Shown one piece after another: positions 8,291 to 56,819 of a DNA stretch of 64,000 bases. Positions within the stretch are counted from its first letter, which is position 1; every line of letters begins with the position of its first letter. The notes beneath the pieces are model-generated. The model had not been told where the DNA came from, ran no database searches, and saw only the letters and a list, made by a program, of their open reading frames with translations. A program made the position numbers and the translations under genes. The stretch covers positions 1-64,000 of the forward strand of contig JAPDJT010000001.1 in assembly GCA_029258955.1 (NCBI GenBank), written 5' to 3'. This DNA comes from Thermoplasmatota archaeon. GTDB lineage: Archaea > Thermoplasmatota > E2 > UBA202 > JdFR-43.

Positions 8291-8327
8291 CACAATATTT
8301 TAATATCTCTTTTTGATTTTTTACAAA

Positions 8328-10027: not shown

Positions 10028-10070
10028 TATTTCGGATATTTTTCCTATTAATTAATTTTATTGATTTATA

Positions 10071-10135: not shown

Positions 10136-10230
10136 TAATTGCAACTCAAAGAAAAATGGGATCTATGATCAATATTCTTTTCTAGATTTTTCAATTTGCC
10201 CAAAACAAATGTTTTTCGATTGTTAAACAT

Positions 10231-10240
10231 AAATTTAAAT
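10231..10240 (+). promoter_or_regulatory. TATA box of C25 peptidase gene
   Basis: AAATTTAAAT, about 20-25 nt upstream of the ATG at 10255, fitting a leaderless transcript. Confidence 0.45.
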
Positions 10241-10254
10241 TGTTTTATTAAATT

Positions 10255-12372
10255 ATGAACATGAAAAAGTTAATCTGCATTATGTTGGTAGCTTTTTTAT
10301 TTATGCCAGCTTTTTCAGCTGAAGAAAAAGCAGTAAAAATGCAATTTATCTACCACTTTGAGAACATAAAATTGGAAAAGAATGATAAAGGCTATATTGT
10401 AAAAATTAATGGTTGTCAGCAACATGAAATAAATGGCTATATAATCCCTGTAAAGCCATTGCACATTTTAATACCATATGGAAAAGATGTTAAAGAAATA
10501 AGAGTTAGTGGTGATGAACATTTCTTAGGATTTTACAATTTAAAGAGGGAGAAGCCATTATACATTGGCAATACAAAGCTTCTGCCAAAAATTGGAGAAG
10601 CAATTAAAAAGAAATATGAATATGTTGGTGTATATGGGCTTAGGGGGTACAAAATTTTAGTTATGAAGTTGATTCCTGTGGAATACAAAAATGGGATGCT
10701 ATTTTACTATGATAAAATAAAAGTTGAAATTGAATTAAAGGATGGAAAAGTAAATGGTTTATATAGAGGGCTTGAAAAAGATAAAGAATGGGTGAAGAGA
10801 TATGTAGATAACAAATGGGTTCTTGATACATATCCAGTAAAAAGCTATGATAGAAAATATGATTATTTGATAATTACAGCTGAAAAATTTGTAGATGCAT
10901 TTAAACCATTTGCAGAATACAAAGAATCAAAGCAGATAAAAACTAAAATTGTAAGTGTGGAGGAGATTATCAGCAATTCTTCTTTCTGGAATTCCACAGA
11001 TTTGTTTAATGATACACAAGCCAAAATAAGAAGATTTATAAGATGGGCTTACTTAAATTGGGGTATAGATTATGTTTTACTTGGAGGAGATGGGGATGTA
11101 ATGAATAAAAGTAGCAACATAATTCCTCCTCGCTATCTATATGCAACTTGCGTTGGCTTGCCATTAGGCGAGACTCAAGAAGTTTTAGAAGGATATATTC
11201 CTTCTGATGTATATTATGCTTGTTTAGATGGGAATTTCAATACAGATATGGATAATAAATGGGGAGAAAATGCAACTGGAAATGATATTAGCGATGAAGA
11301 TGAGGCAGATTTGTTTGCAGAAGTATGGGTGGGAAGGGCATGTGTTGATAAAGTAAAAGAAATTGAAAATTTCATTCATAAAACAGAGGCTTATGAGCAA
11401 ACAAATGATAGCTATATAATTCAAATTCTTTTGCTCGGGGAATATTTAGGTTTTGGAGGAGAAGCAGAATGGGGAGGAAATCATAAAGATAGAATAAAGC
11501 CTTACATACCTTCAATTTACAACATAACAACATTATATGATAGAGAAAATCGTTGGGAAAAAGAGGAACTTATAGCTTTGTTGAATAAAGGAATCCATGT
11601 AGTGAATCATGATGGTCATGGATGGACAACATATGCATTGAAAATGGTAAATAGTGATTTAAAAGCATTGAAGAATACAAAATATTTCTTCTTATATTCC
11701 CAAACTTGTTTAGCTGGTTCTTTTGACAATTGGTATCCTGAAGATAGATACTATGAAGATGATTGTTTTGCTGAGCATTTGGCATTCGATGAACATGGTG
11801 CATTTGCCTGCATAATGAATTCCAGATATGGGCTTGGAAGAGAGAATAGTACTGATTCTCCAGGACAAAGATATGATGAATCTTTCTTTAAAGCTGTTTT
11901 CCAAGAAAATATAAGAGAGCTTGGCAGAGCAAATCATTATTCTAAGGAGGATAATGTTTGGAGAATAAATGAAAATGGAATGAGATGGGTATATTATGAA
12001 ACAAATCTATTTGGGGATCCACAAGTAGCTTTAAAAGAACCTTATGAAAAAGTAAATATAAGTATTGATTTGCAAAAGCCGTTGAATGGAATTTATATAC
12101 TCGATTATGGTCCAATTTTTCCGACTTTATCATCAACAATAATTATTGGAGATATTACAATAAAAGCAAATGTAACAACAGAACCAGCAGGAAAATTACA
12201 AAAAGTGAATTTGTTCATTGACGATATATTGAAGGCTTCTTTTGAAACAGGAAACATAGAGTGGAAATGGGAAGAAAAAGCTTTTGGAGAATATAAAATA
12301 TGCATAGAAGCAATTGCAAGAAATGGAAAAGTAGAAAGGGCGGAGAAGGCTGTTTATATCTTTAACTTTTAG
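10255..12372 (+). CDS. Secreted C25 (gingipain-like) cysteine peptidase
   Basis: 705 residues with a signal peptide ([20 protein letters not shown], cut near FSA). The peptidase C25 core spans about residues 200-580, starting [20 protein letters not shown]. The catalytic dyad is visible as His455 in NHDGHGW and Cys485 in [10 protein letters not shown]. The last ~100 residues form a beta-rich Ig-like module ([16 protein letters not shown]). The family comprises extracellular endopeptidases, so degradation of environmental protein is the likely role. It lacks a recognisable C-terminal anchor. It overlaps the convergent slipin gene by 11 bp. One of three C25 genes in the window and the most divergent of them. 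Confidence 0.85.
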
Positions 12373-13129
12373 CTTTCTTTTCTTCCTTTTCTTTTAGGAA
12401 TGGTTTTATGAATTCTAATGGGAATGGAAAGAATATTTTTGTTGTTCCTTCTGCTGACATCTCTGCCAATGTTTGTAAAGTTCTTAGTTGCAAAGCTGCA
12501 GGCTCACTTGCTATAATTTTTGCAGCTTTTGTTAGTTTTTCAGCAGCTTGTAGCTCTCCTTCTGCTGCTATTATTCTGCTCCTCCTTTCTCTTTCTGCTT
12601 CTGCTGCTCTCGCCATAGCGCGCTGCATTCCTTCCGGAATCTCAACATCTTTTATCTCTACAGCTGTAACTTTTACTCCCCATGCATCTGTTGCCTCATC
12701 CAATATAGTTTGCAATCTCTGATTTATTTTCTCTCTTTCCTTGAGCAGTTCATCTAATTCTACTTGTCCAATAATGCTCCTTAGTGTTGTTTGAGCCATT
12801 TGGCTTGTTGCAACCATATAATTTTGTATCTTAACAACTGCATCTTCTGGATTCATAACGCGAAAATAAACTACAGCATTTACTTTTACAGGAACATTGT
12901 CGGCAGTTATCGCTTCTTGAACAGGCACATCCATTACATGCTCTCTCAAATCAACTTTCACCATCTTATCAAACATTGGTATTATGAAAAACAAGCCAGG
13001 TCCTTTAGCTCCTACAAGTCTTCCAAGCCTGAATATTACGCCTCTTTCATATTCCCTTACAATTTTTATTGCAGATGCAAGTATTATGATAAGCAAAAAT
13101 ATTATCAGTATAGCCAATTCAAGCAACAT
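12362..13129 (-). CDS. Slipin/stomatin-like SPFH membrane protein
   Basis: 255 residues: one N-terminal membrane helix ([20 protein letters not shown]) followed by a prohibitin-homology (SPFH) domain with [20 protein letters not shown] and [20 protein letters not shown], then a charged Ala/Glu-rich helical region ([20 protein letters not shown]) typical of slipins. These proteins form membrane scaffolds and usually pair with an NfeD-type protease; no NfeD is next to it here. Length and motif order are complete. An unrelated membrane-protein gene is divergent upstream. Confidence 0.93.
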
Positions 13130-27903: not shown

Positions 27904-28014
27904 CTCGAAATGTTATTATAGCAAATTTCTCTTTCCAATAAATACATTAAAGCTCTTCATTTATTCTAATTCTATCTCCATAGTAAAAGTTATATCGTGC
28001 TTTTCATTAGAAAA

Positions 28015-29946
28015 ATGGGGAGGAAAATGGAGAAAATATTGCCTGTAATATTGGCTATTGGGTTGATTTTAGGTAGTGTTACAGTAGGCAATGAAAAATT
28101 CGCAACAAACGCAATGAAAAAATCGGAGATAGAGGCAATAAAGCTTGGAGACATTGAAATAAAAGAAAATGAGGAATACGTCAATGTGATCATGGACAAT
28201 GCATATTACTTGCATGAAACTGGCAAACCAATGCTACCATACTATGTAAAAGTATATTATTTCCCATTAGGTAGCAAAGTTAGCATAGAATGTGAGCCAA
28301 AGAACATTGAAACAATGAAAATAGACAAAGAAGTAGTTGTTGCTGAGCCTCCAAAACCAAAGGGAATGAAAGAAATAAAAATTGAGAAAATTCAGCCATT
28401 GAGGGAAACTTATCCAGCTACATGGTATAGCTACCATCTTGGCGGGGGGCTTGTTAACGGAAAAAGAGTTACAATATTAGTTTTGCATTTATATCCAGTA
28501 AGATATAATGCCGATAAAAAAGAGCTAATGATTGCAAATGAATTTGATGTAAAGATAAATTACATAGAACCAAAGAAATTTATTGTGAGTAATGATGAAT
28601 ATGATTTAGTGATTATATGTCCGGAAGAATGGAGAGAAGCGATACAACCATTGGTAGAGCATAAAGAAAATCATGGAATAAGAACTTATGTTGAAACTGT
28701 AGAAAATATATATGCAACATATGAAGGAAGGGATGGTGCAGAAAAAGTGAAATATTTCATTAAAGACATGATTGAGCAATATGGAATAAAATACGTTTTG
28801 CTCATAGGTGGCAAGAAATCATATTTTGTTGGCAACTGGGGACATGATGGACCATTGCATCACGATGATAGCTTGTGGTATTGCCCAGTAAGATATGTAG
28901 CATTAGATGACATGGCTGAACATGGATATATTAGCGACTTGTATTTTGCTGACATATACGATGCAAACGGAAACTTTTCAACATGGGATACAAACAACAA
29001 TGGAATATATGGAGAGTGGAGGCTTCAAGGGAAGGATATTTTAGATTTATATCCGGATGTTTATGTAGGTAGGCTTGCTTGCAGGAGCTTAAAAGAACTC
29101 CAAAATGTCATGGATAAAATAATTAGCTATGAAAGTAGAAGTGTAAGAAATGAAGATTGGTTCAAAAGAATGCTTCTTGTAGGAGGAGATACTTTTGATG
29201 ATGCACAAAATATTTGTGAGGGAGAGGTATCAACAGACTGGTTCTATGAGCATTATATGGCTGATAAATTTGAAAAAGTTAGCTTATATGTTTCAGATGG
29301 AACTCTTACATTTGGCTATACGGAGCCAAACAAAATTGCAGGAAGATTTGCATGGATAAATGTAATAAAAACATTTAGTGAGGGATGTGGAATGGCTGTT
29401 TTCGATGGACACGGAAGTCCAACAGCATGGGCAACCCATTTCCAAGGATATGCAAGTCATAGTGACCCATGGGTAAATGGATTAATGACATATAACATGG
29501 ATTTGCTTAGCAATAATGACATGCTTCCCGTAGTTGTTATAGGGGGCTGTCATAACAGCGAATTCAATATAAGTTTATTTGATGATTTCAAAAATCCATG
29601 GACATATCAGCCAACATACGAATGCTTCAGCTGGCATTTGGTGAAAATGGCAAAGAAAGGAGCTATTGCAACAATAGGTAATACAGGTTTAGGTTATGGA
29701 GCAGAGGGAGGAGATAGAAATGGAAATGGAATTCCAGATTGCGTTGAATACAATGGAGGGTACATTGAAGACAGATTTTACTATGCATATGGAAAACTTG
29801 GTAAAGATGTACTTGGTGAGACATGGGGAACAGCAATAACAGAGTTCTTAAATGTATATCCAGGAATGAAAGATAGAATAGACTGTAAGACAGTTGAAGA
29901 GTGGGTATTGTTGGGGGACCCAACTTTAAAGATAGGAGGTTACTAA
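28015..29946 (+). CDS. Secreted C25 (gingipain-like) cysteine peptidase
   Basis: About 643 residues with a signal peptide (MGRKMEKILPVILAIGLILG). An N-terminal propeptide/beta region leads to the C25 core from NDEYDLVIICPEEWREAIQP. The catalytic pair is visible as His466 in VFDGHGSPTAWATH and Cys512 in VVIGGCHNSEF. It shares WDTNNNGIYGEW and the C-terminal GDPTLKIGGY with the peptidase at 38239, so the two are close paralogues. A TATA-like AGTTATATC at ~27988 lies 24-27 nt before ATG 28015, which fits the leaderless pattern; ATG 28027 preceded by GGGGAGG is an alternative. No anchor was seen, so it is probably released. Confidence 0.87.
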   Translation: MGRKMEKILPVILAIGLILGSVTVGNEKFATNAMKKSEIEAIKLGDIEIKENEEYVNVIMDNAYYLHETGKPMLPYYVKVYYFPLGSKVSIECEPKNIETMKIDKEVVVAEPPKPKGMKEIKIEKIQPLRETYPATWYSYHLGGGLVNGKRVTILVLHLYPVRYNADKKELMIANEFDVKINYIEPKKFIVSNDEYDLVIICPEEWREAIQPLVEHKENHGIRTYVETVENIYATYEGRDGAEKVKYFIKDMIEQYGIKYVLLIGGKKSYFVGNWGHDGPLHHDDSLWYCPVRYVALDDMAEHGYISDLYFADIYDANGNFSTWDTNNNGIYGEWRLQGKDILDLYPDVYVGRLACRSLKELQNVMDKIISYESRSVRNEDWFKRMLLVGGDTFDDAQNICEGEVSTDWFYEHYMADKFEKVSLYVSDGTLTFGYTEPNKIAGRFAWINVIKTFSEGCGMAVFDGHGSPTAWATHFQGYASHSDPWVNGLMTYNMDLLSNNDMLPVVVIGGCHNSEFNISLFDDFKNPWTYQPTYECFSWHLVKMAKKGAIATIGNTGLGYGAEGGDRNGNGIPDCVEYNGGYIEDRFYYAYGKLGKDVLGETWGTAITEFLNVYPGMKDRIDCKTVEEWVLLGDPTLKIGGY

Positions 29947-29957: not shown

Positions 29958-30824
29958 CTATTTATATAATTTTATTGCGTTTATTCCATTTTTTAAATTC
30001 ATCGACTCTGCGATGCTTTCACATTTTACTCTTAAAAAGTAAGCTATTGGTTTATAATTTGTTTCTGAAAATGCTTCGTAGTTTGCCATTCCTTTGCAAA
30101 TAATAAGATTGGCTTCATTTAATTTCCTTTTCAATTTTTCAGATATTCCATTGAAATCAACACCTACTGCAAATTTTCCAGTTGTTATTATTTCATCAAC
30201 TACTTCATCAAAACCAAGTTTTTTTACATCCTCATATGTTGCATCAGTTAAGATTGGGTATTTTTTACAAACAAGCGTTAGATGTACATCATATTTCTTC
30301 AGTTCTTGGCATACAAGCTTGTCAAAAACAATCTCTCCACAATTATCTGTAAAATATAAAATTTCTCCTTTTAAAAGCTTTTTTACCTCCTCCAAATCAT
30401 CATAATATAAGCCTTGTTTTAAAAGCTCATCAAATTTTGCTTCCAGCTCTTCTGGCTTGGATGCGCTTCCAGCTATTCCAAAATCTATAGAATTTCCAGC
30501 TATTGAGCAAAGAATTGCTGCTTTTAGCTTATCTTCACTTTCCTCAATAAATTTTATTGCTTTTGGCAATATTTTTAATGCAATTTCATTACTCTTTTCT
30601 TTCAATTCTTTATATGGGTCTTTATTTCCAAGCAATTCATAAACTAAACCGTGTATTTGCGTTGCTATCTCTGCAGAGCATTTTCTTTCATCGTATATTT
30701 CTGCCATTTTTTCAACTACTTTCTTCATTACAAACGATAATTTTTTCTCATCTTTTGTTACCAGCTGACTCTCAAAGAGGGCTCTGTTGATTAGGCATGG
30801 CACACATCTTGGCTTCATTTTCAT
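29958..30824 (-). CDS. DUF89 family (ARMT1-like) metal-dependent phosphatase, paralogue A
   Basis: 288 residues. The N-terminal MKPRCVPCLINRALFESQLV with paired Cys, the central AGNSIDFG, LYFTDNCGEIVFDKL with the metal-binding Asp/Asn, and CKGMANYEAFSE are the archaeal DUF89 signature. Members act as damage-control phosphatases on sugar phosphates or phosphometabolites; the substrate here is unknown. A second member lies at 50096. It is divergent from thioredoxin with start codons 50 bp apart and a TATA-like ATTAAAATAC midway. Confidence 0.85.
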   Translation of the reverse strand: MKMKPRCVPCLINRALFESQLVTKDEKKLSFVMKKVVEKMAEIYDERKCSAEIATQIHGLVYELLGNKDPYKELKEKSNEIALKILPKAIKFIEESEDKLKAAILCSIAGNSIDFGIAGSASKPEELEAKFDELLKQGLYYDDLEEVKKLLKGEILYFTDNCGEIVFDKLVCQELKKYDVHLTLVCKKYPILTDATYEDVKKLGFDEVVDEIITTGKFAVGVDFNGISEKLKRKLNEANLIICKGMANYEAFSETNYKPIAYFLRVKCESIAESMNLKNGINAIKLYK

Positions 30825-38238: not shown

Positions 38239-39801
38239 ATGAAATGGATTTCATTTCTAATAATATTTATACTTATTGCTCCAATTTCTGGGATTGAATT
38301 TCAAAATATAAAGGAAGGGAAGGAAGAATTAATGGAAAAGGGTTGCTATATTTTTCCATTAGGAAGTAAAATAAAAGTTTATGGAAATGGAAGTATAGAA
38401 ATAAAGCCAGAATGGATAGGGAAGGGACCAGAGATAAATATAGAAGTACCTCCTTATCATATAGGAGTCGGAATAAAAAATGGAAAAAGGGTTTTATTTT
38501 TGAATTTATACACTAATGCTAAAGTAGAAATTGAAAAGGAGAAAGAAAAAATTGTAAAAAAGGATTCCTATGATTTTCTTATAATTTGTCCAGATGAATT
38601 TGTCAAGCCTCTTCAGCCATTAAAATTGCATAAGGAAATGCATGGAATAAAAACAATTATCGTTAATTTAGATGAAATTTACAATGGCAAATATTTTGAT
38701 GCACAAGGAAGAGACGAGCCAGAGAAGATAAAATATTTCATAAAGAATGCAATTGAGCAATGGGGAATAAAATATGTTTTGCTTGTTGGAGATATAAAAA
38801 GATTGCCAACAAGATATGTAATGTATGCTTGGCGCTCTGGATTCAAAATATACAAGGAATTTCTTCCTACAGATTTGTATTATGCCGATATATATAGATA
38901 TGAAAATGGCAAAGTAGTTTTTTCTTCATGGGATACAAATAACAATGGAATATATGGAGAAAGATACTGGGATATAGATAAGGAAGAAGATGTGATAGAC
39001 TTATATCCAGATGTTTATCTTGGTAGATTAGCTTGTGAGAATAAAAGGGTTGTAAAACATGTTGTCAATAAAATAATTGAATATGAAAATAATGCCCATG
39101 GAAAGAGATGGTTTAAAAGGCTTATACTTGTAGGAGGAGATACTTTTCCAAATTGGGGTGTTGTAGAAGGGGAATTTATGAATGAGCTGGTAGCTCAACT
39201 TTTAAATGATTTTGATGCCTACAAAATCTGGTATTCTTTAGGCAATTTAAATACTATAGAAATTCAGAAAGCTTTAGAAATGGGGGCTGGCTTTCTTTAT
39301 TATTCTGGACATGGATTTCCATATGGATGGGCAACTCATGCAATAAATGGAAGCGATGAAGAGTGGGTCGGAAGATATTATACTCCTTATATTGCTGGAT
39401 TGTTTAATGGAAAAAGATTACCAATAATTTTCTTCGATGCATGCTTGACAGCAAAACTCGATTTTAATTCTTCAGATTTGAGAAATGATGGTATTCCTAT
39501 TAAATTCAATGCTTCTTTTCCATGCTTCGCCTGGTATTTTATTCGCCATCCATATGGAGGAGCAATTGCCACCATAGGAGCAACAAGAGTAGCTTATACA
39601 GGAGTATATGAAGATGGTCCTCACTGGGGAGCAGGATATTTGGCATATAAATTCTTTGAATCTTACAAGGAAAGCGATATTTTAGGAAATGTATTTGTGA
39701 TGGCTCAGGAAAAATATATAAGCAAGCTGTGGGATGAATGGACAATACAAGAATTCATTTTGCTTGGCGACCCAACACTTAAAATAGGAGGTTATGCCTA
39801 A
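38239..39801 (+). CDS. Secreted C25 (gingipain-like) cysteine peptidase, compact
   Basis: 520 residues with a short signal peptide (MKWISFLIIFILIAPISGIE). The propeptide region is shorter than in the 28015 paralogue. The C25 core begins KDSYDFLIICPDEFVKPLQP; His358 lies in YYSGHGFPYGWATH and Cys402 in FFDACLTAKL. It shares SSWDTNNNGIYGER and the end GDPTLKIGGYA with that paralogue. No C-terminal anchor or Ig domain. The start is fixed by a TATA box 25 nt upstream. It borders the repeat/IS hot spot. Confidence 0.87.
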   Translation: MKWISFLIIFILIAPISGIEFQNIKEGKEELMEKGCYIFPLGSKIKVYGNGSIEIKPEWIGKGPEINIEVPPYHIGVGIKNGKRVLFLNLYTNAKVEIEKEKEKIVKKDSYDFLIICPDEFVKPLQPLKLHKEMHGIKTIIVNLDEIYNGKYFDAQGRDEPEKIKYFIKNAIEQWGIKYVLLVGDIKRLPTRYVMYAWRSGFKIYKEFLPTDLYYADIYRYENGKVVFSSWDTNNNGIYGERYWDIDKEEDVIDLYPDVYLGRLACENKRVVKHVVNKIIEYENNAHGKRWFKRLILVGGDTFPNWGVVEGEFMNELVAQLLNDFDAYKIWYSLGNLNTIEIQKALEMGAGFLYYSGHGFPYGWATHAINGSDEEWVGRYYTPYIAGLFNGKRLPIIFFDACLTAKLDFNSSDLRNDGIPIKFNASFPCFAWYFIRHPYGGAIATIGATRVAYTGVYEDGPHWGAGYLAYKFFESYKESDILGNVFVMAQEKYISKLWDEWTIQEFILLGDPTLKIGGYA

Positions 39802-47870: not shown

Positions 47871-48161
47871 CTATTTCCTTAAAACAAAATCTCCACCTTC
47901 TATTCTAATTGCTTTTCCATTTATCATGGCATCTGCTATTTTGTAGCGAGCATTTTTCAAATCGTTCCATAAAGCTTTTTGGGAAATGCCCATCTTAGCT
48001 GCTGCTTCATGCTGGGTTAAGCCAAGATAGTCTACTAGCCTAAAAGCTTCGAATTCCTCTATGCGCAGAGTAACTACTCCATTATATGGAATATTAGGAA
48101 TAAAATGTGTTGCCATTGGCAACATCTCTACCCATCTTCTGCACCTTCTCCTTCCCGGCAT
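47871..48161 (-). CDS. DUF134 (UPF0251) DNA-binding protein
   Basis: 96 residues. It begins MPGRRRCRRWVEMLPMATHF, then VTLRIEEFEAFRLVDYLGLT followed by QHEAAAKMGISQKALWNDLK, a sigma-70 region-4-like helix-turn-helix. DUF134 proteins are regularly encoded beside NifX/Mrp-type gene clusters in anaerobes; here it is divergent from such an operon with 82 bp between start codons, so it is the likely regulator. A TTATAAATTT TATA lies ~25 nt upstream on the minus strand. Confidence 0.9.
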   Translation of the reverse strand: MPGRRRCRRWVEMLPMATHFIPNIPYNGVVTLRIEEFEAFRLVDYLGLTQHEAAAKMGISQKALWNDLKNARYKIADAMINGKAIRIEGGDFVLRK

Positions 48162-48200
48162 TGATTTTATAAAGATAAATTTATAAAAAATTTTGGCAAA

Positions 48201-48210
48201 AAATTTATAT
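48201..48210 (+). promoter_or_regulatory. TATA box of the metal/Fe-S cofactor operon
   Basis: AAATTTATAT; about 27 nt later the mRNA would start, leaving a ~15-nt leader with SD AAGGTGGT (48232-48239) before ATG 48244. This leadered, SD-bearing start contrasts with the mostly leaderless genes elsewhere. Confidence 0.45.
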
Positions 48211-48243
48211 ATTTCATACTATATATTCCACAAGGTGGTAAAA

Positions 48244-48435
48244 ATGCCGTGGGGCTTTGGAAGAGGAAGAGGTTGGGGATTTGGATTTGGTTGGTATGGC
48301 TATGGATGGCCAGGATGGGGCAGAGGAAATCCATACCCATTCTGCAGACGCTTTCCATGGCTTCCCAGAGGCTGGTGGCGAATGCCATACATGCCATACT
48401 ATGGATTGCCATATTACCCATGGAGGTGGTGGTAA
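48244..48435 (+). CDS. Gly/Trp/Tyr-rich small protein (micropeptide 1)
   Basis: 63 residues: MPWGFGRGRGWGFGFGWYGY, then PGWGRGNPYPFCRR and a Trp/Pro/Tyr-rich end (YYPWRWW), with one Cys. The opening resembles the MPxxDGxGPxG starts of DUF5320 proteins, which accompany NifX genes in many anaerobes. Low-complexity aromatic composition suggests a disordered or metal/cluster-associated scaffold peptide; this is inference. A strong SD precedes it, and its stop abuts the next ATG. Confidence 0.7.
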   Translation: MPWGFGRGRGWGFGFGWYGYGWPGWGRGNPYPFCRRFPWLPRGWWRMPYMPYYGLPYYPWRWW

Positions 48436-48588
48436 ATGCCATTCGGCATGGGTCCATACGGCTGGCTAATGATGCCATACATAATGCCATGGATATATAC
48501 ATGGATGTATTACTACCCATACTATAGCTACATGCCATGGTACTGGTATCCATATAGTTACTGGTATCCATATTACTATCCATGGTAA
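48436..48588 (+). CDS. Tyr/Trp/Pro-rich small protein (micropeptide 2)
   Basis: 50 residues: MPFGMGPYGWLMMPYIMPWI followed by alternating Tyr/Trp/Pro (YPYYSYMPWYWYPYSYWYPY). It begins on the base after the stop of micropeptide 1. Over half the residues are aromatic or Pro, with no charged residues. It has no recognised family and was found by reading codons between its neighbours. A C/T-rich tract (CCCCTCTTCC) follows, possibly an attenuating terminator before the next gene. Confidence 0.6.
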   Translation: MPFGMGPYGWLMMPYIMPWIYTWMYYYPYYSYMPWYWYPYSYWYPYYYPW

Positions 48589-48627
48589 CTACGAGCGCCC
48601 CTCTTCCTTAAATTATTAGGTGAAAAA

Positions 48628-48783
48628 ATGTATTGGCCATATTTCATGCCTTGGGTGCCTTTCATGCCTCTGTTTCCGCCAGAAATAGAAATAGCTATGC
48701 TGGAGCAGGAAAAAGCAATGTTGGAGGCAAGGCTAGCAGAAATAAATAAAAGGCTTGAACAGTTAAAGGGTGGATTAAAATGA
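48628..48783 (+). CDS. DUF5320-like coiled-coil small protein (micropeptide 3)
   Basis: 51 residues: an aromatic Pro-rich head (MYWPYFMPWVPFMPLFPPEI) and a coiled-coil tail (IAMLEQEKAMLEARLAEINK then RLEQLKGG). The tail closely resembles the tails of the NifX protein (48780) and the ferredoxin (49322) that follow. An SD-like TTAGGTG precedes the ATG. The stop overlaps the next start (ATGA). Confidence 0.72.
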   Translation: MYWPYFMPWVPFMPLFPPEIEIAMLEQEKAMLEARLAEINKRLEQLKGGLK

Positions 48784-49325
48784 AAATAATAGTAGCAACC
48801 AATAGAGGAGGTTTAGAGGATGATGTTTCTCCAGTATTTGGAAGATGCCAGACATTTACAATAATAGAGGCAGAGGGAAGTGAAATAAAAAACGTGGAAG
48901 TAGTGCCAAATCAATTTGCCAATGCTGTTCACGGTGCGGGCATACAAGCTGGACAGTGGGTTGTCAACCAGAAAGCAAAGGCAGTCATAGCAGGAAACTT
49001 TGGTCCAAATGTTTCATCTATACTACAGCAAGCTGGCATAGAGATGATTGTAGCACAAGGGAAAGTAAAGGAAGTAGTTGAAAAATATCTGCGAGGAGAG
49101 CTTCGATCTCCTTCAACTCCTCCCTCTCCATATCCATATCAACCTTATCAACCACCATATCAACCGTATCAGCCAATGCCACCATATCCATATTATCCGC
49201 CTCCACCTCCTGCAATACCGTCAATGAGCAAGGAAGAGGAAATAAAAATGCTTGAGGAAGAGCTGAGGAGGATAGAAGACATGCTATCTGCTATTAAGAA
49301 AAGGCTCGAGGAGCTAAAGAAATGA
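48780..49325 (+). CDS. NifX-type (dinitrogenase cofactor-binding) protein with Pro/Tyr linker and coiled coil
   Basis: 181 residues in three parts. Residues 1-103 are a NifX/NifB-C fold: MKIIVATNRGGLEDDVSPVF, then GRCQTFTIIEAEG and AKAVIAGNFGPNVSSILQQA. Residues ~108-148 are a repeat-like linker (YPYQPYQPPYQPYQPMPPYP). Residues ~152-181 are a coiled coil (EEIKMLEEELRRIEDMLSAI). NifX domains bind Fe-S or Fe-Mo cluster precursors; no nitrogenase genes are seen, so a general cluster-handling role is more likely. Confidence 0.85.
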   Translation: MKIIVATNRGGLEDDVSPVFGRCQTFTIIEAEGSEIKNVEVVPNQFANAVHGAGIQAGQWVVNQKAKAVIAGNFGPNVSSILQQAGIEMIVAQGKVKEVVEKYLRGELRSPSTPPSPYPYQPYQPPYQPYQPMPPYPYYPPPPPAIPSMSKEEEIKMLEEELRRIEDMLSAIKKRLEELKK

Positions 49326-49540
49326 AAGCAAGAGTAATAGAAGAGAGATGCGTTGGTTGTGGATTATGCGTCAATGTATGCCCTCAACATGCTATTGAGC
49401 TAGTTGGAAAAAAGGAGCATCCGTTTCTATTACCAACACAAAAAGAAATGGAACTAATGATGATTATGGATCAACTAAGAATGATAGAAAGTGTGTTGCT
49501 AAGTATGAAGGAAAGAATTAAAAGAATAGGAGGTGAATAA
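49322..49540 (+). CDS. Single-cluster ferredoxin with coiled-coil tail
   Basis: 72 residues. One [4Fe-4S] motif CVGCGLCVNVCPQHAIEL at residues ~10-27, then a helical tail (EMELMMIMDQLRMIESVLLS, MKERIKRI) like those of the two preceding proteins. Coupled to the NifX gene by ATGA and directly followed (no gap) by the zinc-ribbon gene. Probably the electron carrier or cluster donor of this complex. Confidence 0.87.
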   Translation: MKARVIEERCVGCGLCVNVCPQHAIELVGKKEHPFLLPTQKEMELMMIMDQLRMIESVLLSMKERIKRIGGE

Positions 49541-49708
49541 ATGGGAATGGGAGCTGGAAGAGGAAGAGGTGCAGGAGGAAGAGCAGGAGCGGGTCCTCCA
49601 AAAGAATGCGTATGCCTGAACTGTGGCTACAGAATACCTCATCAGCCAGGAATACCTTGTCGCCAGATGCAATGTCCAAGATGTGGAGCGCCAATGGTAA
49701 GAGGATAA
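49541..49708 (+). CDS. Gly/Arg-rich zinc-ribbon small protein
   Basis: 55 residues: a Gly/Arg/Ala head ([20 protein letters not shown]), then [20 protein letters not shown] and CPRCGAPM, giving CxCxxC...C...CxxC metal sites. Small rubredoxin/zinc-ribbon-like proteins of this form accompany NifX and Mrp genes. It fits exactly between the ferredoxin stop and the next ATG and is preceded by the SD AGGAGGTG. Confidence 0.75.
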
Positions 49709-49709
49709 A

Positions 49710-50099
49710 ATGAGGGTTGCATTTCCTACTTTAGGCAATAAAGGATTAGATGAAGAAATTGGAGAGCATTTTGGAAGGGTGCCAACATATACTATTGTAG
49801 ATTTGGAAACAAATGAAGTTAAAATAATACCAAATACAAGCTATCATATGGGAGGAGTTGGCTATCCTCCAGAATTGCTTGCCAAAGAGCAAGTAAAAGT
49901 TTTAATATGCAAAGGACTGGGAAGAAGAGCAATAAATATGTTTCAAGATTTTGGCATAGATGTGTATATAGGAGCTACAGGTAAAGTAAAAGATGCCTTA
50001 GATGCTTTTAAAAAAGGCTTATTAAAGAAAGCTACTGTAGAAAATGCCTGCAAAGAGCATGCATTTGGAGATATGCATCACTGGCATGAGAGAATATGA
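49710..50099 (+). CDS. NifX-type cofactor-binding protein
   Basis: 129 residues, NifX fold only: MRVAFPTLGNKGLDEEIGEH, then FGRVPTYTIVDLE, the conserved AKEQVKVLICKGLGRRAINM and DVYIGATGKVKDALDAF. It ends with a His/Cys-rich tail (ENACKEHAFGDMHHWHERI) that could bind metal. Second NifX of the operon; the stop overlaps the DUF89 start. Confidence 0.88.
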   Translation: MRVAFPTLGNKGLDEEIGEHFGRVPTYTIVDLETNEVKIIPNTSYHMGGVGYPPELLAKEQVKVLICKGLGRRAINMFQDFGIDVYIGATGKVKDALDAFKKGLLKKATVENACKEHAFGDMHHWHERI

Positions 50100-50962
50100 G
50101 AACATACTTAGATTGTATACCTTGCTTCCTTAGGCAATCATTGGAAGCGTCTCGAATGGTAACCTCTAATGAAACCCTCCATGAAATTGTATTAAAAAAA
50201 GTAATGAGGTATTTGCAAGTAATATCTTCTTTTAATAACCCTCCCCCAGAATTGTCCAAAGAAGTTCATGCAATTGTTAGAAACATGCTTAATTGCAAGG
50301 ATCCTTACAGGGAAGTTAAGAAAAAATCTAATGAAATGGCAAACGAATTGTATCCTCGTTTGGAGCAGATAGTGGAGGAAGCAAAGGACCCATTTCTTAT
50401 GGCTACTAAATTGGCTATAATAGGAAACGTTATAGATTTTGGAGCAATGAATCGATTTGATGTTAAGGATATGATTAATAAAGCAATTACAGAGAACATA
50501 GATGACAATGCATATTCAAGATTTAAAGAAAGTATAGAAAAAGCACAGACTATTCTTTATTTAGCAGATAATGCGGGAGAGATATTTTTTGATAAACTTC
50601 TTATAAAAAAATTTGCAGAAATGGGAAAAAGGATAGTTTACGCAGTTAAAAATAATCCAATAATTAATGATGCTACCATAGAGGATGCGAAATTTGCAGG
50701 CATAGACAAGTTTGCTGAGGTTTTGCCAGCAGATGAGGGTCAAGATAAATCAGCTCCAGGCATATTGCTTAACTATGCATCTTCTAAATTTTTAAATTAT
50801 TTTAGGAATGCAGATGTCATCATTGCAAAAGGTCAGGGAAATTATGAATCTCTTAGCAATAGCGGGAGAGAAATATTTTTTCTATTAGTAGTAAAATGTC
50901 CTCTAGTTGCAAGAGATATTAGGGCAGATATAGGCAAGCTTATTTTAAAGGTGATTGAATGA
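50096..50962 (+). CDS. DUF89 family (ARMT1-like) protein, paralogue B
   Basis: 288 residues, same family as 29958: MRTYLDCIPCFLRQSLEASR with paired Cys, AIIGNVIDFGAMN, LYLADNAGEIFFDKLLIKKF and IIAKGQGNYESLS. The metal-dependent phosphatase residues Asp/Asn in LADNAGE are present. It lies inside the coupled NifX/Mrp operon by ATGA on both sides, so its damage-control substrate may be a phosphorylated by-product of this pathway; inference only. Confidence 0.86.
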   Translation: MRTYLDCIPCFLRQSLEASRMVTSNETLHEIVLKKVMRYLQVISSFNNPPPELSKEVHAIVRNMLNCKDPYREVKKKSNEMANELYPRLEQIVEEAKDPFLMATKLAIIGNVIDFGAMNRFDVKDMINKAITENIDDNAYSRFKESIEKAQTILYLADNAGEIFFDKLLIKKFAEMGKRIVYAVKNNPIINDATIEDAKFAGIDKFAEVLPADEGQDKSAPGILLNYASSKFLNYFRNADVIIAKGQGNYESLSNSGREIFFLLVVKCPLVARDIRADIGKLILKVIE

Positions 50963-51771
50963 TTATTGCTGTAGCATCTGGCAAAGGAGGCGTTGGAAAA
51001 ACAACTGTAGCTGTTAATTTGGCTTTAGCTAACAATGGTATTATATACGATTGTGATGTTGAAGAGCCAAATGCAAATGTGTTTATAAAGGCCAAGCTGG
51101 AAAAAATTGATGATGTTTATTTAATGAATCCTGAATTCAATTTAGAAACATGCAAATTCTGCAAGAAATGTGCAGAATTTTGCAAATATAATGCTATAGC
51201 TGTTTTACCTTCTGATATTCTATTTTTTAAAGAACTTTGCTCTGGGTGTGGAGGATGCAAAATTGTTTGTCCTTATGACGCCATTGAAGAAGGAAAAAGA
51301 AAAATTGGAGAGATTTATTATGGAAAAAATGAAATAGAAATCTATCAAGGTTTGCTTAACATTGGAGAGGCAAGAGCAACTCCTGTTATAACAAAGCTTA
51401 AAAAATATGTAAAAAAAGATGGCATATCAATTTTAGATGCTCCCCCCGGCAATGCATGTCCAGCTATAGAAACTATGCATCATTCCGATTTCGTTATTCT
51501 TGTTACTGAACCAACTCCTTTTGGATTGCACGATTTGAAAATTGCTGTAGAAATAGTAAAAAAGCTAAACATTCCTCATGGTGTTATAATAAATAAATAC
51601 GGGCTTGGCGATAAAAGTGTTGAAGAATTTTGCAAGGAGGAAGGAATAGAGATTTTAATGAAAATTCCTTATAGCAAGGAAATTGCTGAGCTATATTCTA
51701 AAGGAATAGCGTTAGCAAAGGAAAAAGAATGGGAGAAAAAATTTGTGGAGTTATATGAGGCAATAAAATGA
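50959..51771 (+). CDS. MinD/Mrp-type P-loop ATPase with inserted ferredoxin domain, copy 1
   Basis: 270 residues. The deviant Walker A is ASGKGGVGKTTVAVNL (residues ~5-20). An inserted 2x[4Fe-4S] domain follows (CKFCKKCAEFCKYNAI and CSGCGGCKIVCPYDAI, ~65-112). Then LDAPPGNACPAIETMHHSDF carries the family's APPG and a conserved Cys. This COG1149 family is related to Nbp35/ApbC Fe-S carriers. With its partner at 52517 it probably forms a pair that moves clusters or electrons in an ATP-dependent way. Confidence 0.92.
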   Translation: MIIAVASGKGGVGKTTVAVNLALANNGIIYDCDVEEPNANVFIKAKLEKIDDVYLMNPEFNLETCKFCKKCAEFCKYNAIAVLPSDILFFKELCSGCGGCKIVCPYDAIEEGKRKIGEIYYGKNEIEIYQGLLNIGEARATPVITKLKKYVKKDGISILDAPPGNACPAIETMHHSDFVILVTEPTPFGLHDLKIAVEIVKKLNIPHGVIINKYGLGDKSVEEFCKEEGIEILMKIPYSKEIAELYSKGIALAKEKEWEKKFVELYEAIK

Positions 51772-52520
51772 TTGTTTATGGCCCTGTTGCTTCATGGAGG
51801 TTAGGCAAATCATTGGGCATTGATTTGATTAGTCGCCAAAAAACATGCTCTTTTGATTGTGTTTATTGCCAACTAGGAAAAACAGTGCATAAAATAGCAG
51901 AGAGAAGAATATTTGTAGATGATAATGTTGCAAAAAATGAATTAGATAAATTTCCTTGGAATAATGTTGCTGTTGATGTTATAACTTTTTCTGGAATGGG
52001 AGAACCAACTTTGGCAAAGAATTTAGGCAATGTAGCAAGATATGCTAAAAAATTTGGCAAGCCTATTGCCATACTAACTAACTCGTCATTATTTAGCTAT
52101 GAAGATGTTCAAAAGGATTTGGAAAATGTAGACTGGATTATAGCAAAGCTTGATGCTCCAGATGATAAAATTTTTAAAAAAATAAATAGACCTCATGAAA
52201 AAATAAAATTTGATGAAATGGTTGATTACATGAAAGAAATTGCAAGTAAAGTAAAAAAATTTTCATTACAAATGATGTTCATTGAGGAAAATAAAAATTA
52301 TGCTGAGGAAATGGCTTCTTTAGCTAAAGAAATTAAAGCAGATGAGATCCAAATAAATACACCATTAAGAAAATCTCCTGTTGCTCCTTTATCTAAAGAG
52401 GAATTGTTTGAAATAGAAGGAGCATTTTCTGGGCTAAATACAATAAATGTTTATTCTTCGCCGAAGCCGGAAGTAAAGCCATTAAATTATGAAGAAGTAA
52501 AAAGGAGGCGCCCAGAATGA
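51768..52520 (+). CDS. Radical SAM protein (COG0731-like)
   Basis: 250 residues. Opening VYGPVASWRLGKSLGIDLIS, then the radical-SAM motif CSFDCVYCQLG (CxxxCxxC), the GGE-like SGMGEPT loop, and NINTPLR-type C-terminal strand (QINTPLRKSP). The family is of Fe-S oxidoreductases of unknown reaction, related in sequence to TYW1-like enzymes. Sandwiched between the two MinD/Mrp genes with ATGA overlaps, it probably modifies a substrate or protein of this pathway. Confidence 0.88.
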   Translation: MIVYGPVASWRLGKSLGIDLISRQKTCSFDCVYCQLGKTVHKIAERRIFVDDNVAKNELDKFPWNNVAVDVITFSGMGEPTLAKNLGNVARYAKKFGKPIAILTNSSLFSYEDVQKDLENVDWIIAKLDAPDDKIFKKINRPHEKIKFDEMVDYMKEIASKVKKFSLQMMFIEENKNYAEEMASLAKEIKADEIQINTPLRKSPVAPLSKEELFEIEGAFSGLNTINVYSSPKPEVKPLNYEEVKRRRPE

Positions 52521-53362
52521 AGCAAATTGCAATAGCTAGCGGAAAAGGGGGCGTTGGAAAAACAAGCTTAGTTGCTTCTTTTGCAAGTTTTGCTAATGCT
52601 GTTGTAGCTGATTGCGATGTTGATGCCCCAAATTTACATTTAATTTTCAAGCCAGAAATAGAAGAGAAAATACCTTTTGAAGGAATGGAAGTAGCTGAGA
52701 TAAGCGAGGAAAAATGCATAAAATGTGGAGCTTGCGAAGGAGCTTGTAGATTCGAGGCAATAGAGAATTTTAAAGTTATAGAAGAGAAATGCGAAGGGTG
52801 TAGCGTTTGCCAACTTGTTTGTCCTGTAAATGCCATCGAAATGAAAAAGAGGATAAGTGGGCATATTTATGTTGGAAATACAAGATTTGGAAAATTTGTT
52901 TATGGTTTATTGAAGCCTGGCGAAGAAGCATCTGGCAAATTAGTTACTCAAGTTAGAAGGGCGGCGGAGGAAATTGCTAAAAAAGATGGAAAAGAACTTA
53001 TTCTTATAGATGCTCCCCCTGGCATAGGATGCCCAGTTATAGCTTCTATAGGCAATACAAATTTAGTTGTTATAGTTACTGAGCCAACAATGCCAGCTAT
53101 TCATGATATGAAAAGAGTGCTTAGTGTGGCAGAGCATTTTAAAGTTAAAGCTGTAGTGGTAATAAATAAGTATGATATAAATGAAGAAATGGGAAGAAAA
53201 ATTGAAGCGTTTTGTAATGAGAATGGAATCGAAATAGTTGGTAAAATTCCATTTGATAAAAAATTTGTTGAAGCAATGATTAATGAAAAAAATATTGTTG
53301 AGTATGATGATAAGTTAGCAGAATTAATGGAAGAAATATGGAATGAAATAAAGATAAAATGA
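52517..53362 (+). CDS. MinD/Mrp-type P-loop ATPase with inserted ferredoxin domain, copy 2
   Basis: 281 residues, paralogue of 50959. Walker A ASGKGGVGKTSLVASF, cluster motifs CIKCGACEGACRFEAI and CEGCSVCQLVCPVNAI, switch DAPPGIGCPVIASIG. The pair flanks a radical SAM gene. Coupled by ATGA to both neighbours. Confidence 0.92.
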   Translation: MKQIAIASGKGGVGKTSLVASFASFANAVVADCDVDAPNLHLIFKPEIEEKIPFEGMEVAEISEEKCIKCGACEGACRFEAIENFKVIEEKCEGCSVCQLVCPVNAIEMKKRISGHIYVGNTRFGKFVYGLLKPGEEASGKLVTQVRRAAEEIAKKDGKELILIDAPPGIGCPVIASIGNTNLVVIVTEPTMPAIHDMKRVLSVAEHFKVKAVVVINKYDINEEMGRKIEAFCNENGIEIVGKIPFDKKFVEAMINEKNIVEYDDKLAELMEEIWNEIKIK

Positions 53363-54582
53363 ATGTAGCATTTGAAAAAAGCTTGCGAATATCTGTTCTT
53401 GCAGGATTTATAACTTTATTTCTTGCTTTATTTAAAGGTGTGGTTGGCTATCTTACGAATTCTTTTTTACTTATATCAGATGCTATTCATTCTGCTTCAG
53501 ATTTATTAGTCATTTTCACTGCATCAATAGGGATAAAAATTGCTTCAAAAACACCAGATGAAAGATTTCCTTATGGATATTATAAGGCAGAAAATCTGGC
53601 AACTTTGTTTATTTCATTTCTAATTATTTTTGCTGGCTATGAGGTTGCTATTGAAGGATATAAAAAATTGTACTATCTACCGTCATTAAGACTGCCATAT
53701 TTAGCTTTATTTACTACGCTTATCTCTATAATTATTTCTTATTGGATTGCCATTCATCTATGTAGGATTGGAAGAGAAAACAGGATGCAATCTTTAATTG
53801 CTGTTGGACATGAACGCAAAATAGATGCCTTGTCATCTGTTTTTGTCTTCATTGGAATAATTTTAGATTATTTTAACTTCAGATATGTTGAAGGAATTTT
53901 TAGCATAGGGATAGCGATTTTGATTTTCAAAATAGGTGTAGAAAGCTTAAAGGATTCAATTTATGCATTAATGGATTATGCTCCCAAAGAGGCAAAAAAG
54001 AAAATTGTTGATTTGCTTAAGAAGCAAAAAGATATAGAAGGATTTAATGAAATCAAGTTGAGAAGATCCGGTCCATTTTTATTTGGAGAAGCAAAAGTAT
54101 TTGTGAAAAAAGGCTTGGATATAAGCAAAGCTCATGAAATAGCAGATAGAATAGAAAAGGAAGTAAAAGATAGGCTTAGAGATATTGATTCATTTGTTAT
54201 ACATGTAGAGCCACATAAAGCAAAGATTGTTAGAGTTGCTATTCCTATAGATAATGGAAAAATATCTGAACATTTTGGAAGAGCTCAAAAATTTTTGCTA
54301 TTGACAGTGGATAGAGAAAATAAGAGGATAGTTAAAAAGGACGAAATAAAAAATCCTTATTTTAAAAAGAGAATTAGAGCTGGTTTAGCTTGTGCTAAGC
54401 TTTTAGTTAACAAAGGAATAGATGTTTTAATAACAAAGGAAATAGGAGAAATTGCATATCATATGTTAAGTGATGAAGGCATAGAAATTTATTCAGCTAA
54501 GGGTGATCTTGACGAAACAATAAAAGATTTTATTGAAGAAAAGTTGGAGAAAATGGAAAAACCAACAAAGGTGAAAGAATGA
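53359..54582 (+). CDS. Cation diffusion facilitator fused to a NifX domain
   Basis: 407 residues. Residues ~1-205 are a six-helix CDF transporter with metal sites (SDAIHSASDLLVIF in TM2; GHERKIDALSS in TM5). Residues ~205-285 are the cytosolic CDF domain (ALMDYAPKEAKKKIVDLLKK, ending IDSFVIHVEPHK). Residues ~290-390 are a NifX fold (VRVAIPIDNGKISEHFGRAQ, LLVNKGIDVLITKEIGEIAY). Substrate metal (Fe, Zn or Mn) not assignable. The fusion physically links metal export or import to the cluster-binding module used elsewhere in the operon. Confidence 0.9.
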   Translation: MNVAFEKSLRISVLAGFITLFLALFKGVVGYLTNSFLLISDAIHSASDLLVIFTASIGIKIASKTPDERFPYGYYKAENLATLFISFLIIFAGYEVAIEGYKKLYYLPSLRLPYLALFTTLISIIISYWIAIHLCRIGRENRMQSLIAVGHERKIDALSSVFVFIGIILDYFNFRYVEGIFSIGIAILIFKIGVESLKDSIYALMDYAPKEAKKKIVDLLKKQKDIEGFNEIKLRRSGPFLFGEAKVFVKKGLDISKAHEIADRIEKEVKDRLRDIDSFVIHVEPHKAKIVRVAIPIDNGKISEHFGRAQKFLLLTVDRENKRIVKKDEIKNPYFKKRIRAGLACAKLLVNKGIDVLITKEIGEIAYHMLSDEGIEIYSAKGDLDETIKDFIEEKLEKMEKPTKVKE

Positions 54583-55175
54583 AGGTAAAAATTGTTTATG
54601 ATAATAAGGCTCTGCCTGGCTTTAAATCGGCATGGGGCTTTTCCTGCTTTATTGAGCATAACATAAATTTGCTTTTTGATACTGGCTGGAGATATAGCAT
54701 ATTGAAATATAATATGGAAAAGTTAGGAATAAGTTTAGATAATATAGATGCTATTTTCATATCTCACAGCCACTGGGACCATGCTGGAGGGCTAAAAAAA
54801 TTGGGATTCAAAGGAAAGATATACGTTCCTCCTTCATCAAATTTAAAAGGAATAAAAGTGGAAAAAGGGGAATTTCTGCCAAATTTCATTTCAACAGGAG
54901 AAATAAATGGTGAGCAATCTTTAATTGTTAGAAATGGGGATAAACTCGTAATATTTACTGGATGTAGCCATAATGGCTTAAAAAATGTAATAAGAATAGC
55001 CGAGGAATATGGTGAAATATACGGAATAATAGGTGGATTTCATGATTTTAAGGAAATTGATTTACTTAAAAATTATAAGCTGGTAATGCCATGCCATTGC
55101 ACAAAGCTAAAGAAACAAATAGAATCTTTTCCAAATGCTATAGAATGTATGGCAGGAAAAATAGTGGAAATATGA
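54579..55175 (+). CDS. Metallo-beta-lactamase fold hydrolase (COG1237-like)
   Basis: 198 residues. Metal motif SHSHWDHAGGLKKLG, preceded by LLFDTGWRYSILKYNMEKLG, with later HNGLKNV, GGFHDF and MPCHCTKL ligands. The COG1237 branch includes dihydropterin-ribofuranosyl-aminobenzene-phosphate synthase-like proteins; the protein is shorter than those, so the substrate is unknown. Coupled by ATGA to the CDF-NifX gene and to the methyltransferase. Confidence 0.86.
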   Translation: MKVKIVYDNKALPGFKSAWGFSCFIEHNINLLFDTGWRYSILKYNMEKLGISLDNIDAIFISHSHWDHAGGLKKLGFKGKIYVPPSSNLKGIKVEKGEFLPNFISTGEINGEQSLIVRNGDKLVIFTGCSHNGLKNVIRIAEEYGEIYGIIGGFHDFKEIDLLKNYKLVMPCHCTKLKKQIESFPNAIECMAGKIVEI

Positions 55176-55744
55176 AATATGATGATTTCTTTTTCTCGCC
55201 ATTAGGCAAGAAAATTCTGGAGGCGGAGGCAAAATTTATTGCAAATCATGCAGAAGGAATTGCATTAAGCATAGGATGTGGGACAGGAATAATAGAGGAA
55301 AAAGTGGAAAAGATATCTAAGGCAGAAATAATAGGGATTGAAATTGATGATGAAATGCTTTCAATTGCTAAGGGGAGAATAAGCATTATTAAAGCCAATG
55401 CTATGGCTTTACCATTCAAAAATTCTTCCATTGATACTATAATCTTCGTAACATCTTTGGAATTTATTGAAGATTACAAAAAAGCTATAGATGAAGCATA
55501 TAGAGTTTTAAAAAAGGGTGGCAAACTTGTTGCCATATTACTCAATACCTCTTCACCTTATTTTAAACAAAGATATGGAAAGGGAGGGTATATAAGAAAA
55601 AACATAAAACATCTAGATATTGATGCTATACTCAATTTTATGAAAATGCATTTTAAGCTTAAGGTAAAAGGATTATTTGAAATCAAAGATAAAGAATTAT
55701 TATTTCCAGGAAAGAGTGTATATGGAGTGGTAGGAATTAAATGA
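55172..55744 (+). CDS. SAM-dependent methyltransferase, UbiE/type-11 like
   Basis: 190 residues. SAM motif I in ALSIGCGTGIIEEKVEKISK, acidic motif IGIEIDDEMLSIAKGRI, motif FVTSLEFIEDYKKAIDEAYR then VLKKGGKLVAILLN. A generic class I small-molecule methyltransferase. The start at 55172 is set by ATGA overlap with the hydrolase gene; the longer frame lies inside that gene. Last gene of the coupled operon. Confidence 0.85.
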   Translation: MKYDDFFFSPLGKKILEAEAKFIANHAEGIALSIGCGTGIIEEKVEKISKAEIIGIEIDDEMLSIAKGRISIIKANAMALPFKNSSIDTIIFVTSLEFIEDYKKAIDEAYRVLKKGGKLVAILLNTSSPYFKQRYGKGGYIRKNIKHLDIDAILNFMKMHFKLKVKGLFEIKDKELLFPGKSVYGVVGIK

Positions 55745-55772: not shown

Positions 55773-56819
55773 TTGCTTATTTCTCTTCTTATCCTCTTAT
55801 TCATTTTATCATTAATGTCACCTTATCAAATTAAGGAATATCCTTATTTTGTTCATTGGAAAACTATTGCTATTTTAGCTGGCTTGCTTCTAATTTCAAC
55901 TGGATTGAAAGAAAGTGGTTTATTGCATATGTTTTCAGAAAAAATTCTTTCCCATATGAACACGGAAAGAAAGCTTGCTTTCTTTTTAATTCTCCTCACC
56001 GCCTTCTTCTCCTCTTTTTTAACAAATGATGTTGCTCTTTTTGTTGTTGTGCCTTTGACGCTTGGAATGCAAAATTTGTTAAACAGAGATGTTTCAAAAT
56101 TAATTATTTTTGAAGCTATCTCTGCAAATGTTGGTTCTTCATTAACACCCATAGGCAACCCACAGAATATTTTCATATGGCAAAAATGGGGTATTTCTTT
56201 TTTATCTTTCATCATAAAACTTTTCCCTCTTATTTCTATTTTACTTCCTCTGCTTTTCATGTTTACATTTATCTCATTTAAAAATACAAAGTTGGAAAAG
56301 CAGAGGAAGCAGGCACATATAGAAAAATTTCTTGCAATATCTTCTTTTCTTTTCTTAATAACATATCTTATTTTCCTACAAATTAACTATATTTTTTATT
56401 TACTACCCATCTTCTTTCTCTTCTATCTCATTCTTTTTCCATCAGTCATTAAAAATACAGATTGGCTCCTCTTATTCCTTTTTATTCTAATTTTCGTTGA
56501 CTTTCAATGTGTTTCAAATCTCTGGTTAATAAAGCAAATTATGCAGAAGATTAGCATAAATCATTTCTTGCTTTCTGCTTTTCTTTCTCAATTCATGAGC
56601 AATGTTCCTGCAACTATTTTCATTTCAAATTTTTCTAATGATTGGCTTAAAATTGCATATGGTGTAAATGTTGGAGGAAATGGATTCATATTTGCATCTT
56701 TGGCAAATATTATTGCTTTAAGGCTAAGTAATAAACAAATTTTTATTGAATTCCACAAGTACTCCATTCCATTCTTCATAATAAGCTTAAGCATTGTTTA
56801 TCTTATATTGATCTGCTAA
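55773..56819 (+). CDS. ArsB/NhaD-type permease
   Basis: 348 residues, about ten membrane helices. Two pseudo-repeats with SSFLTNDVALFVVVPLTLGM and SQFMSNVPATIFISNF, and NVGSSLTPIGNPQNIFIW, the signature of the CitMHS/ArsB/NhaD ion-transporter superfamily. It could carry an anion (arsenite, citrate) or exchange Na+/H+; not separable here. The start is TTG at 55773, supported by a strong SD (AAGGAGG) 7 nt upstream. It lies 28 bp after the methyltransferase. Confidence 0.85.
   Translation: MLISLLILLFILSLMSPYQIKEYPYFVHWKTIAILAGLLLISTGLKESGLLHMFSEKILSHMNTERKLAFFLILLTAFFSSFLTNDVALFVVVPLTLGMQNLLNRDVSKLIIFEAISANVGSSLTPIGNPQNIFIWQKWGISFLSFIIKLFPLISILLPLLFMFTFISFKNTKLEKQRKQAHIEKFLAISSFLFLITYLIFLQINYIFYLLPIFFLFYLILFPSVIKNTDWLLLFLFILIFVDFQCVSNLWLIKQIMQKISINHFLLSAFLSQFMSNVPATIFISNFSNDWLKIAYGVNVGGNGFIFASLANIIALRLSNKQIFIEFHKYSIPFFIISLSIVYLILIC

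Follow-up and report, generated by a model that had tools for sequence, protein, structure and literature searches.

Which process would call for NifX-domain proteins, a ferredoxin, MinD-type ATPases, a radical SAM protein and micropeptides to be encoded side by side is the question raised by a 14-gene operon (48244-55744) of a Thermoplasmatota archaeon (assembly GCA_029258955.1), located in a window that is the whole stretch of DNA analysed, the first 64,000 nucleotides of contig JAPDJT010000001.1. With a probability of about 0.62, the operon is an extended locus of the ORP/IssA type that uses ATP to assemble, store and traffic a metal sulfide, most likely Fe-S. An earlier sequence-only reading had proposed the handling of a metal or Fe-S cluster, which is supported by an ORP-type core and an IssA-like NifX protein, and had called the pathway unknown, missing that the core belongs to the known ORP kind. 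The handling of Fe-S and other metal sulfides in strict anaerobes is poorly understood, and ORP and IssA have been studied apart, their roles remaining unsettled; the operon appears to unite ORP-type ATPases, an IssA-like NifX protein, micropeptides of a split DUF5320, DUF134 and recurrent enzymes in one unit.

Layout and conservation of the operon

Checks of open reading frames and protein families confirmed the 14-gene set and the divergent DUF134 gene of the sequence-only reading, with their coordinates and family assignments, as follows (dN/dS, ratio of nonsynonymous to synonymous substitution):

47871..48161, minus strand: DUF134 helix-turn-helix protein, candidate regulator (PF02001, 90.9 bits against a cut-off of 27)
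48164..48243, no strand: divergent promoter region, with a block near-invariant in 7 genomes
48244..48435, plus strand: micropeptide A, 63 aa (dN/dS 0.07-0.32)
48436..48588, plus strand: micropeptide B, 50 aa, conserved (pN 0.04-0.06, pS 0.5-0.8)
48628..48783, plus strand: micropeptide C, aromatic head and coiled coil of the DUF5320 C-terminal type
48780..49325, plus strand: NifX1, with an IssA/MTH1175-like NifX domain, a Pro/Tyr-rich linker and a DUF5320-type coil
49322..49540, plus strand: one-cluster [4Fe-4S] ferredoxin (4Fe-4S family match) with a DUF5320-type coil tail
49541..49708, plus strand: zinc-ribbon-like protein (ZnR), 6 Cys, Gly/Arg-rich N-terminus, weak family match
49710..50099, plus strand: NifX2, ORP/NifX domain (PF02579, 69 bits) and His-rich C-terminus
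50096..50962, plus strand: DUF89 metal-dependent phosphatase (PF01937, 228.6 bits), motifs intact
50959..51771, plus strand: MinD1 P-loop ATPase, two [4Fe-4S] motifs with 8 invariant cluster cysteines
51768..52520, plus strand: radical SAM protein (rSAM) of a GPVxSxRLGxSLG family, with CxxxCxxC
52517..53362, plus strand: MinD2 P-loop ATPase, two [4Fe-4S] motifs
53359..54582, plus strand: CDF cation efflux transporter-NifX fusion (family matches to both domains)
54579..55175, plus strand: MBL-fold hydrolase, TM1679-like, metal ligands intact
55172..55744, plus strand: class I SAM methyltransferase (family match and predicted fold)
55773..56819, plus strand: CitMHS-type transporter, possible 15th gene (family match)

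The genes overlap tightly: between 48628 and 55744 all neighbours overlap by 4 bp, abut or lie 1 bp apart, as had been claimed, provided that the methyltransferase starts at 55172, which creates an ATGA overlap (an alternative start lies at 55091). The two micropeptides said to lead this run, A and B (48244-48588), are under purifying selection, and the micropeptides and small proteins in general have dN/dS values of mostly 0.03-0.3 against relatives in other genera, so the micropeptides are not chance open reading frames. Because the CitMHS gene begins 28 bp after the methyltransferase gene and directly abuts it in one relative (L033), it is possibly a 15th member of the operon. The assembly is fragmented, with an estimated contamination of 7.3%, versus 1% for a sister genome of the same genus; since the latter carries the same operon, contamination of the operon contig is unlikely.

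Related operons (L029-L033, L047 and the shorter L045, of which L030 and L033 end at a contig edge) keep the order DUF134, then divergently A, B, C, NifX1, ferredoxin, ZnR, NifX2, DUF89, MinD1, rSAM, MinD2, (CDF-NifX), MBL and methyltransferase across several genera, the variable genes being DUF89, rSAM, CDF-NifX and CitMHS. In almost all related genomes, MinD1 and MinD2 are either neighbours or have just rSAM or a single other gene between them; of the 22 relatives with both DUF134 and MinD1, 12 have the two genes no more than 12 kb apart. The divergent promoter region contains an archaeal TATA-like sequence, TTTATATATTT (48204-48214), and a conserved element, TACTATATATTCC (48217-48229), and its near-invariant block TTTATATATTTNNTACTATATATTCC is kept in seven genomes.

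A scan with a MinD1 alignment recovered at least 57 named ORP-type loci (L049-L105), spanning Methanosarcinales, Bathyarchaeota and more than 10 bacterial phyla, and P-loop-only matches, 21 of which served as ParA/MinD controls. Among the matches listed, to which all statements on these loci refer, NifX was present at 54 of the 57 loci, MinD2 at 52, DUF134 at 25, ZnR at 16, rSAM at 13, DUF89 and MBL at 8 each and the methyltransferase at 4, and each family scored there was found at 0 of the 21 control loci. Under a binomial null that assumes 1-4 copies in each genome, the probability is at most 2e-5 for DUF89 and for MBL. The order MinD1-rSAM-methyltransferase-MinD2 occurs in Smithella (L058) and Aminicenantes (L083), and rSAM stands between MinD1 and MinD2 in an unclassified bacterium (L071), the same arrangement as in the operon. 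Clustering of the neighbours also revealed MrpORP, a sigma54 activator, a NifU-type scaffold, DUF5320 and TrmO-like proteins, the NifU-type scaffold at no fewer than 8 and the TrmO-like protein at no fewer than 5 loci (L061, L083 and similar). Parts of the set had been said to recur in anaerobes, and both the core and the families of the modification arm do so at distant ORP loci.

Comparison with ORP loci, IssA and DUF5320

Formation of thioferrate nanoparticles is a hallmark of IssA, as a Mo-Cu sulfide cluster is of the ORP protein. In the ORP complex of Desulfovibrio vulgaris, an ORP protein and MrpORP are joined by a pair of ATPases that each carry two ferredoxin motifs; the ORP proteins and MrpORP are Fe-S or metal-sulfide proteins (PMC6345978), and the Desulfovibrio locus is under sigma54 control (PMC3897727). 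The archaeal operon shares with this locus (DVU2103-DVU2109) a pair of related ATPases that carry two [4Fe-4S] ferredoxin motifs apiece (the P-loop KGGxGKT and eight cluster cysteines are retained in both MinD1 and MinD2), a NifX/ORP-domain protein, a divergent regulator and an anaerobic host, but it has an archaeal promoter and DUF134 in place of the sigma54 system and adds the micropeptides, DUF89, rSAM, MBL, methyltransferase and CDF-NifX. In Archaeoglobus fulgidus, AF2378-AF2380 show high constitutive expression, and the authors drew a link to ORP (PMC3949148); by their published description these are likewise archaeal NifX and MinD/CbiA-type genes, but the extended gene set is not described there. 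The genome that carries the 14-gene operon also has a second, compact ORP-type locus on another contig (C12 42000-58000, L048; about 6377-12882), with DUF5320, two NifX, Mrp/NUBPL, MBL, MinD1, MinD2 and a different radical SAM protein; a further Mrp/NUBPL gene lies beside DUF134 in the sister genome.

The three NifX domains of the operon, one of them fused to the CDF transporter, match PF02579 at 66-71 bits. The ORP structure 2wfb is among their matches in the PDB, and NifX2 matches 2yx6, 1t3v and 1o13. In a comparison with PDB entries, the nearest relative of NifX1 is MTH1175 (61 bits, versus 38 for ORP), a protein included in the published IssA analysis (PMC5524996). In Pyrococcus furiosus, IssA (PF2025) binds iron and sulfide in the form of thioferrate and reconstitutes ferredoxin in vitro; its NifX domain is followed by a Pro-rich segment and a Gly/aromatic/cationic tail (PMC5524996). 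In its parts NifX1 resembles this iron-sulfide storage protein, having an N-terminal NifX domain and a long Pro-rich tail (19 Pro within the last 73 residues), but it ends in a charged coiled coil and sits inside a 14-gene operon, and the part of Gly/aromatic/Arg make-up described for IssA (PMC5524996) is found on a separate protein, micropeptide A, with 14 G, 11 W and 8 R in 63 aa and further Tyr. Micropeptide B is rich in Tyr, Trp and Pro; in one relative (L047) the N-terminal part of B runs on into the micropeptide C coil, a fusion which suggests that B and C together make up one functional protein.

The micropeptides had been recognized as real genes, but not as probable pieces of DUF5320, a family that accompanies ORP loci. 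A DUF5320 model built solely from DUF5320-like proteins of other genomes matched the C-terminal coils of NifX1 (24.8 bits), micropeptide C (17.9 bits) and the ferredoxin (10.9 bits) at the same model columns, whereas the remaining operon proteins scored at most 8 bits. None of 1000 shuffles per tail (500 plain and 500 preserving the hydrophobic pattern) reached the score of the real coil, the margin for the ferredoxin being thin (11.2 vs 10.0). With the curated family (PF17253), micropeptide C (21.9 bits) and the NifX1 tail (19.6 bits) fell short of the cut-off of 27, in matches to the C-terminal coil only. Micropeptide A and the ZnR N-terminus weakly match the Gly/Arg/aromatic middle of the model. 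From these matches we infer that a shared coil joins NifX1, micropeptide C and the ferredoxin, and that in this operon DUF5320 has been broken up, its parts being micropeptides A and C and the coil tails of NifX1 and the ferredoxin; the operon differs from DUF5320 proteins near ORP loci in spreading the parts over separate genes and in lacking the GPxGxGPMTGRG head. No tie of DUF134, DUF5320 or DUF89 to ORP was found in the open-access literature searched.

The analysis demonstrates the gene content of the operon, its conservation and co-inheritance, the integrity of domains and residues, the homology of the coils and the conserved promoter. What we infer about metal identity, metal binding, ATP-driven transfer and regulation is the following. 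NifX1 and NifX2 would bind the metal sulfide, which the Arg/Trp/Gly/Tyr-rich micropeptides and the Pro/Tyr tails would help to hold or condense, and the DUF5320-type coils of micropeptide C, NifX1 and ferredoxin would unite scaffold, peptide and electron donor in one assembly. The MinD1/MinD2 pair, with two [4Fe-4S] sites each, would spend ATP on loading or releasing clusters; the CDF-NifX fusion would couple the metal-sulfide pool to efflux of divalent metal; and DUF134 would control the divergent promoter. As a recurrent side arm, DUF89, rSAM, MBL and the methyltransferase may serve to synthesize, alter or repair some small organic partner, although what chemistry they carry out is a guess. 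Since a SufB-like gene is present in the genome, the operon would be an addition to the basic Fe-S system.

Accessory enzymes and rival explanations

The small-molecule modification arm proposed earlier is recurrent in such loci, but rSAM, like CDF-NifX, is an accessory that is absent or located elsewhere in several relatives; two operons (L045 and L047) have instead a longer radical SAM protein of the same family that overlaps DUF134. Across the class (80 genomes), MinD1 and rSAM occur together in 38 genomes, MinD1 alone in 5, rSAM alone in 6 and neither in 31 (Fisher P = 4e-11, and 4e-7 within family f4 alone, values that are inflated by relatedness among the genomes). The two genes lie within 12 kb of each other in 18 of the 38 genomes with both, and of 12 f4 genomes inspected, 11 have the short rSAM at a distance from the locus, so their co-occurrence is not mere physical linkage; the idea that the short rSAM depends on the locus was dropped for the same reason. 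DUF89, which is ARMT1-like with solved relatives 2ffj and 2g8l, keeps the motifs DNAGE, ND and KGQGNxE invariant among members of the operon type, and its closest orthologs (at least 53% identity) adjoin MinD1 in 11 of the 11 genomes where the contig permits a check, further DUF89 paralogues lying elsewhere. The MBL hydrolase retains HxHxDH and later ligands (relatives 7dck and 3h3e/TM1679), and the model of the methyltransferase shows a class I fold of generic type, with matches at the superfamily level only. The gene set had been held to be one co-inherited unit, and a search for independent assortment, by rSAM-MinD1 and DUF89-MinD1 association and by the counts at the listed loci, did not overturn this.

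Several observations weigh against an ORP/IssA-type locus. The operon contains no Mrp gene and hence no MrpORP (Mrp fused to NifX), no sigma54 enhancer-binding activator was found among its genes or the immediate neighbours scanned, and the IssA-type Gly/aromatic/cationic tail is not on NifX1 itself. Some related operons lack CDF-NifX, some DUF89 and some rSAM, the short rSAM is displaced in f4 as described, and the enrichment of MBL and the methyltransferase, like that of DUF89, is not significant when compared with the small set of 21 controls alone. The operon, moreover, is known here from genes and sequence.

Chance or convenience clustering, in which unrelated neighbours of an ORP core are co-transcribed for reasons of expression, would account for accessory genes that come and go and for the displaced rSAM of f4, but it is very improbable: phyla far apart have the same accessory families at their ORP loci, in some cases in identical positions, and the DUF89 ortholog always adjoins MinD1, so that the data already point to accessory genes lying near MinD1 beyond chance in independent lineages. 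Metal efflux or detoxification, with CDF-NifX exporting excess Fe, Zn, Mn or thiometallates, NifX and aromatic peptides as buffers and a metal-responsive DUF134, is unlikely. It draws on the fusion of CDF to NifX in two genera (L047 also has the fusion), on the further transporter gene downstream, and on the lack, in this genome and its sister, of the strong ferritin match present in most relatives; but CDF-NifX is absent from four related operons (L029, L031, L033 and L045) and CDF from all 57 named loci, which makes CDF an add-on, and other operon-holding genomes do have ferritin. Replacement of ferritin was accordingly set aside as not clean, two operon genomes lacking true ferritin and others carrying both.

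The MinD fold invites a positional or cell-division role, in which the ATPases and NifX would place a membrane or polar complex and metal binding would act as a sensor; a part in cell division has been proposed for the Desulfovibrio ORP genes, and amphipathic helices lie at the C-termini of Orp3/4 (PMC6345978, PMC3897727). The C-termini of MinD1 and MinD2 have only moderate hydrophobic moments (0.41 and 0.52), and DUF89, rSAM, MBL, the methyltransferase, CDF-NifX and the IssA-like parts would be left unexplained, making such a role quite improbable. The co-occurrence of NifX domains with a radical SAM protein could also suggest nitrogenase-like cofactor synthesis, with rSAM and NifX as a split NifB/NifX that builds a carbide- or heterometal-containing, FeMo-co-like cofactor for an unknown enzyme, and the AlphaFold model of rSAM (pLDDT 78) does resemble NifB (7jma, TMt 0.75). 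That model, however, matches many radical SAM folds with no clear winner, NifB being no better than PFL-AE, viperin and others; rSAM has three cysteines only (27, 31 and 34), all in CxxxCxxC, which leaves none for the extra clusters that NifB fuses and argues that it is not NifB-like; and related operons lack it or carry it at another place. The genome, too, has no PF00148 (nitrogenase core) match anywhere, extending to the whole genome the earlier statement that nitrogenase genes are absent. Split cofactor synthesis of the NifB kind was rejected on cysteine count and fold and is the least probable of these explanations. An undescribed metal-sulfide cofactor or storage particle, with an organic ligand built by rSAM, DUF89, MBL and the methyltransferase and held in a nitrogenase-independent coiled-coil condensate of NifX1, ferredoxin and aromatic micropeptides, is a tentative and rather unlikely proposal.

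As a probable extended ORP/IssA-type locus, the operon supplies a list of parts that can be tested, and it marks DUF89, MBL enzymes and a family of radical SAM proteins as likely partners of ORP systems. No prior description of the extended gene set was found in the literature searched, the neighbourhood analysis of Fievet 2011 lying outside that comparison.

Elsewhere in the genome, a second DUF89 paralogue is encoded in the window at 29958-30824 on the minus strand (32% identical to the operon copy) and a third on contig C12. The window also encodes three gingipain-type C25 peptidases (10255-12372, 27997-29946 and 38239-39801), near which are a giant lamin-tail-domain protein and NosD/beta-helix proteins, an association that suggests a protein-degrading lifestyle.

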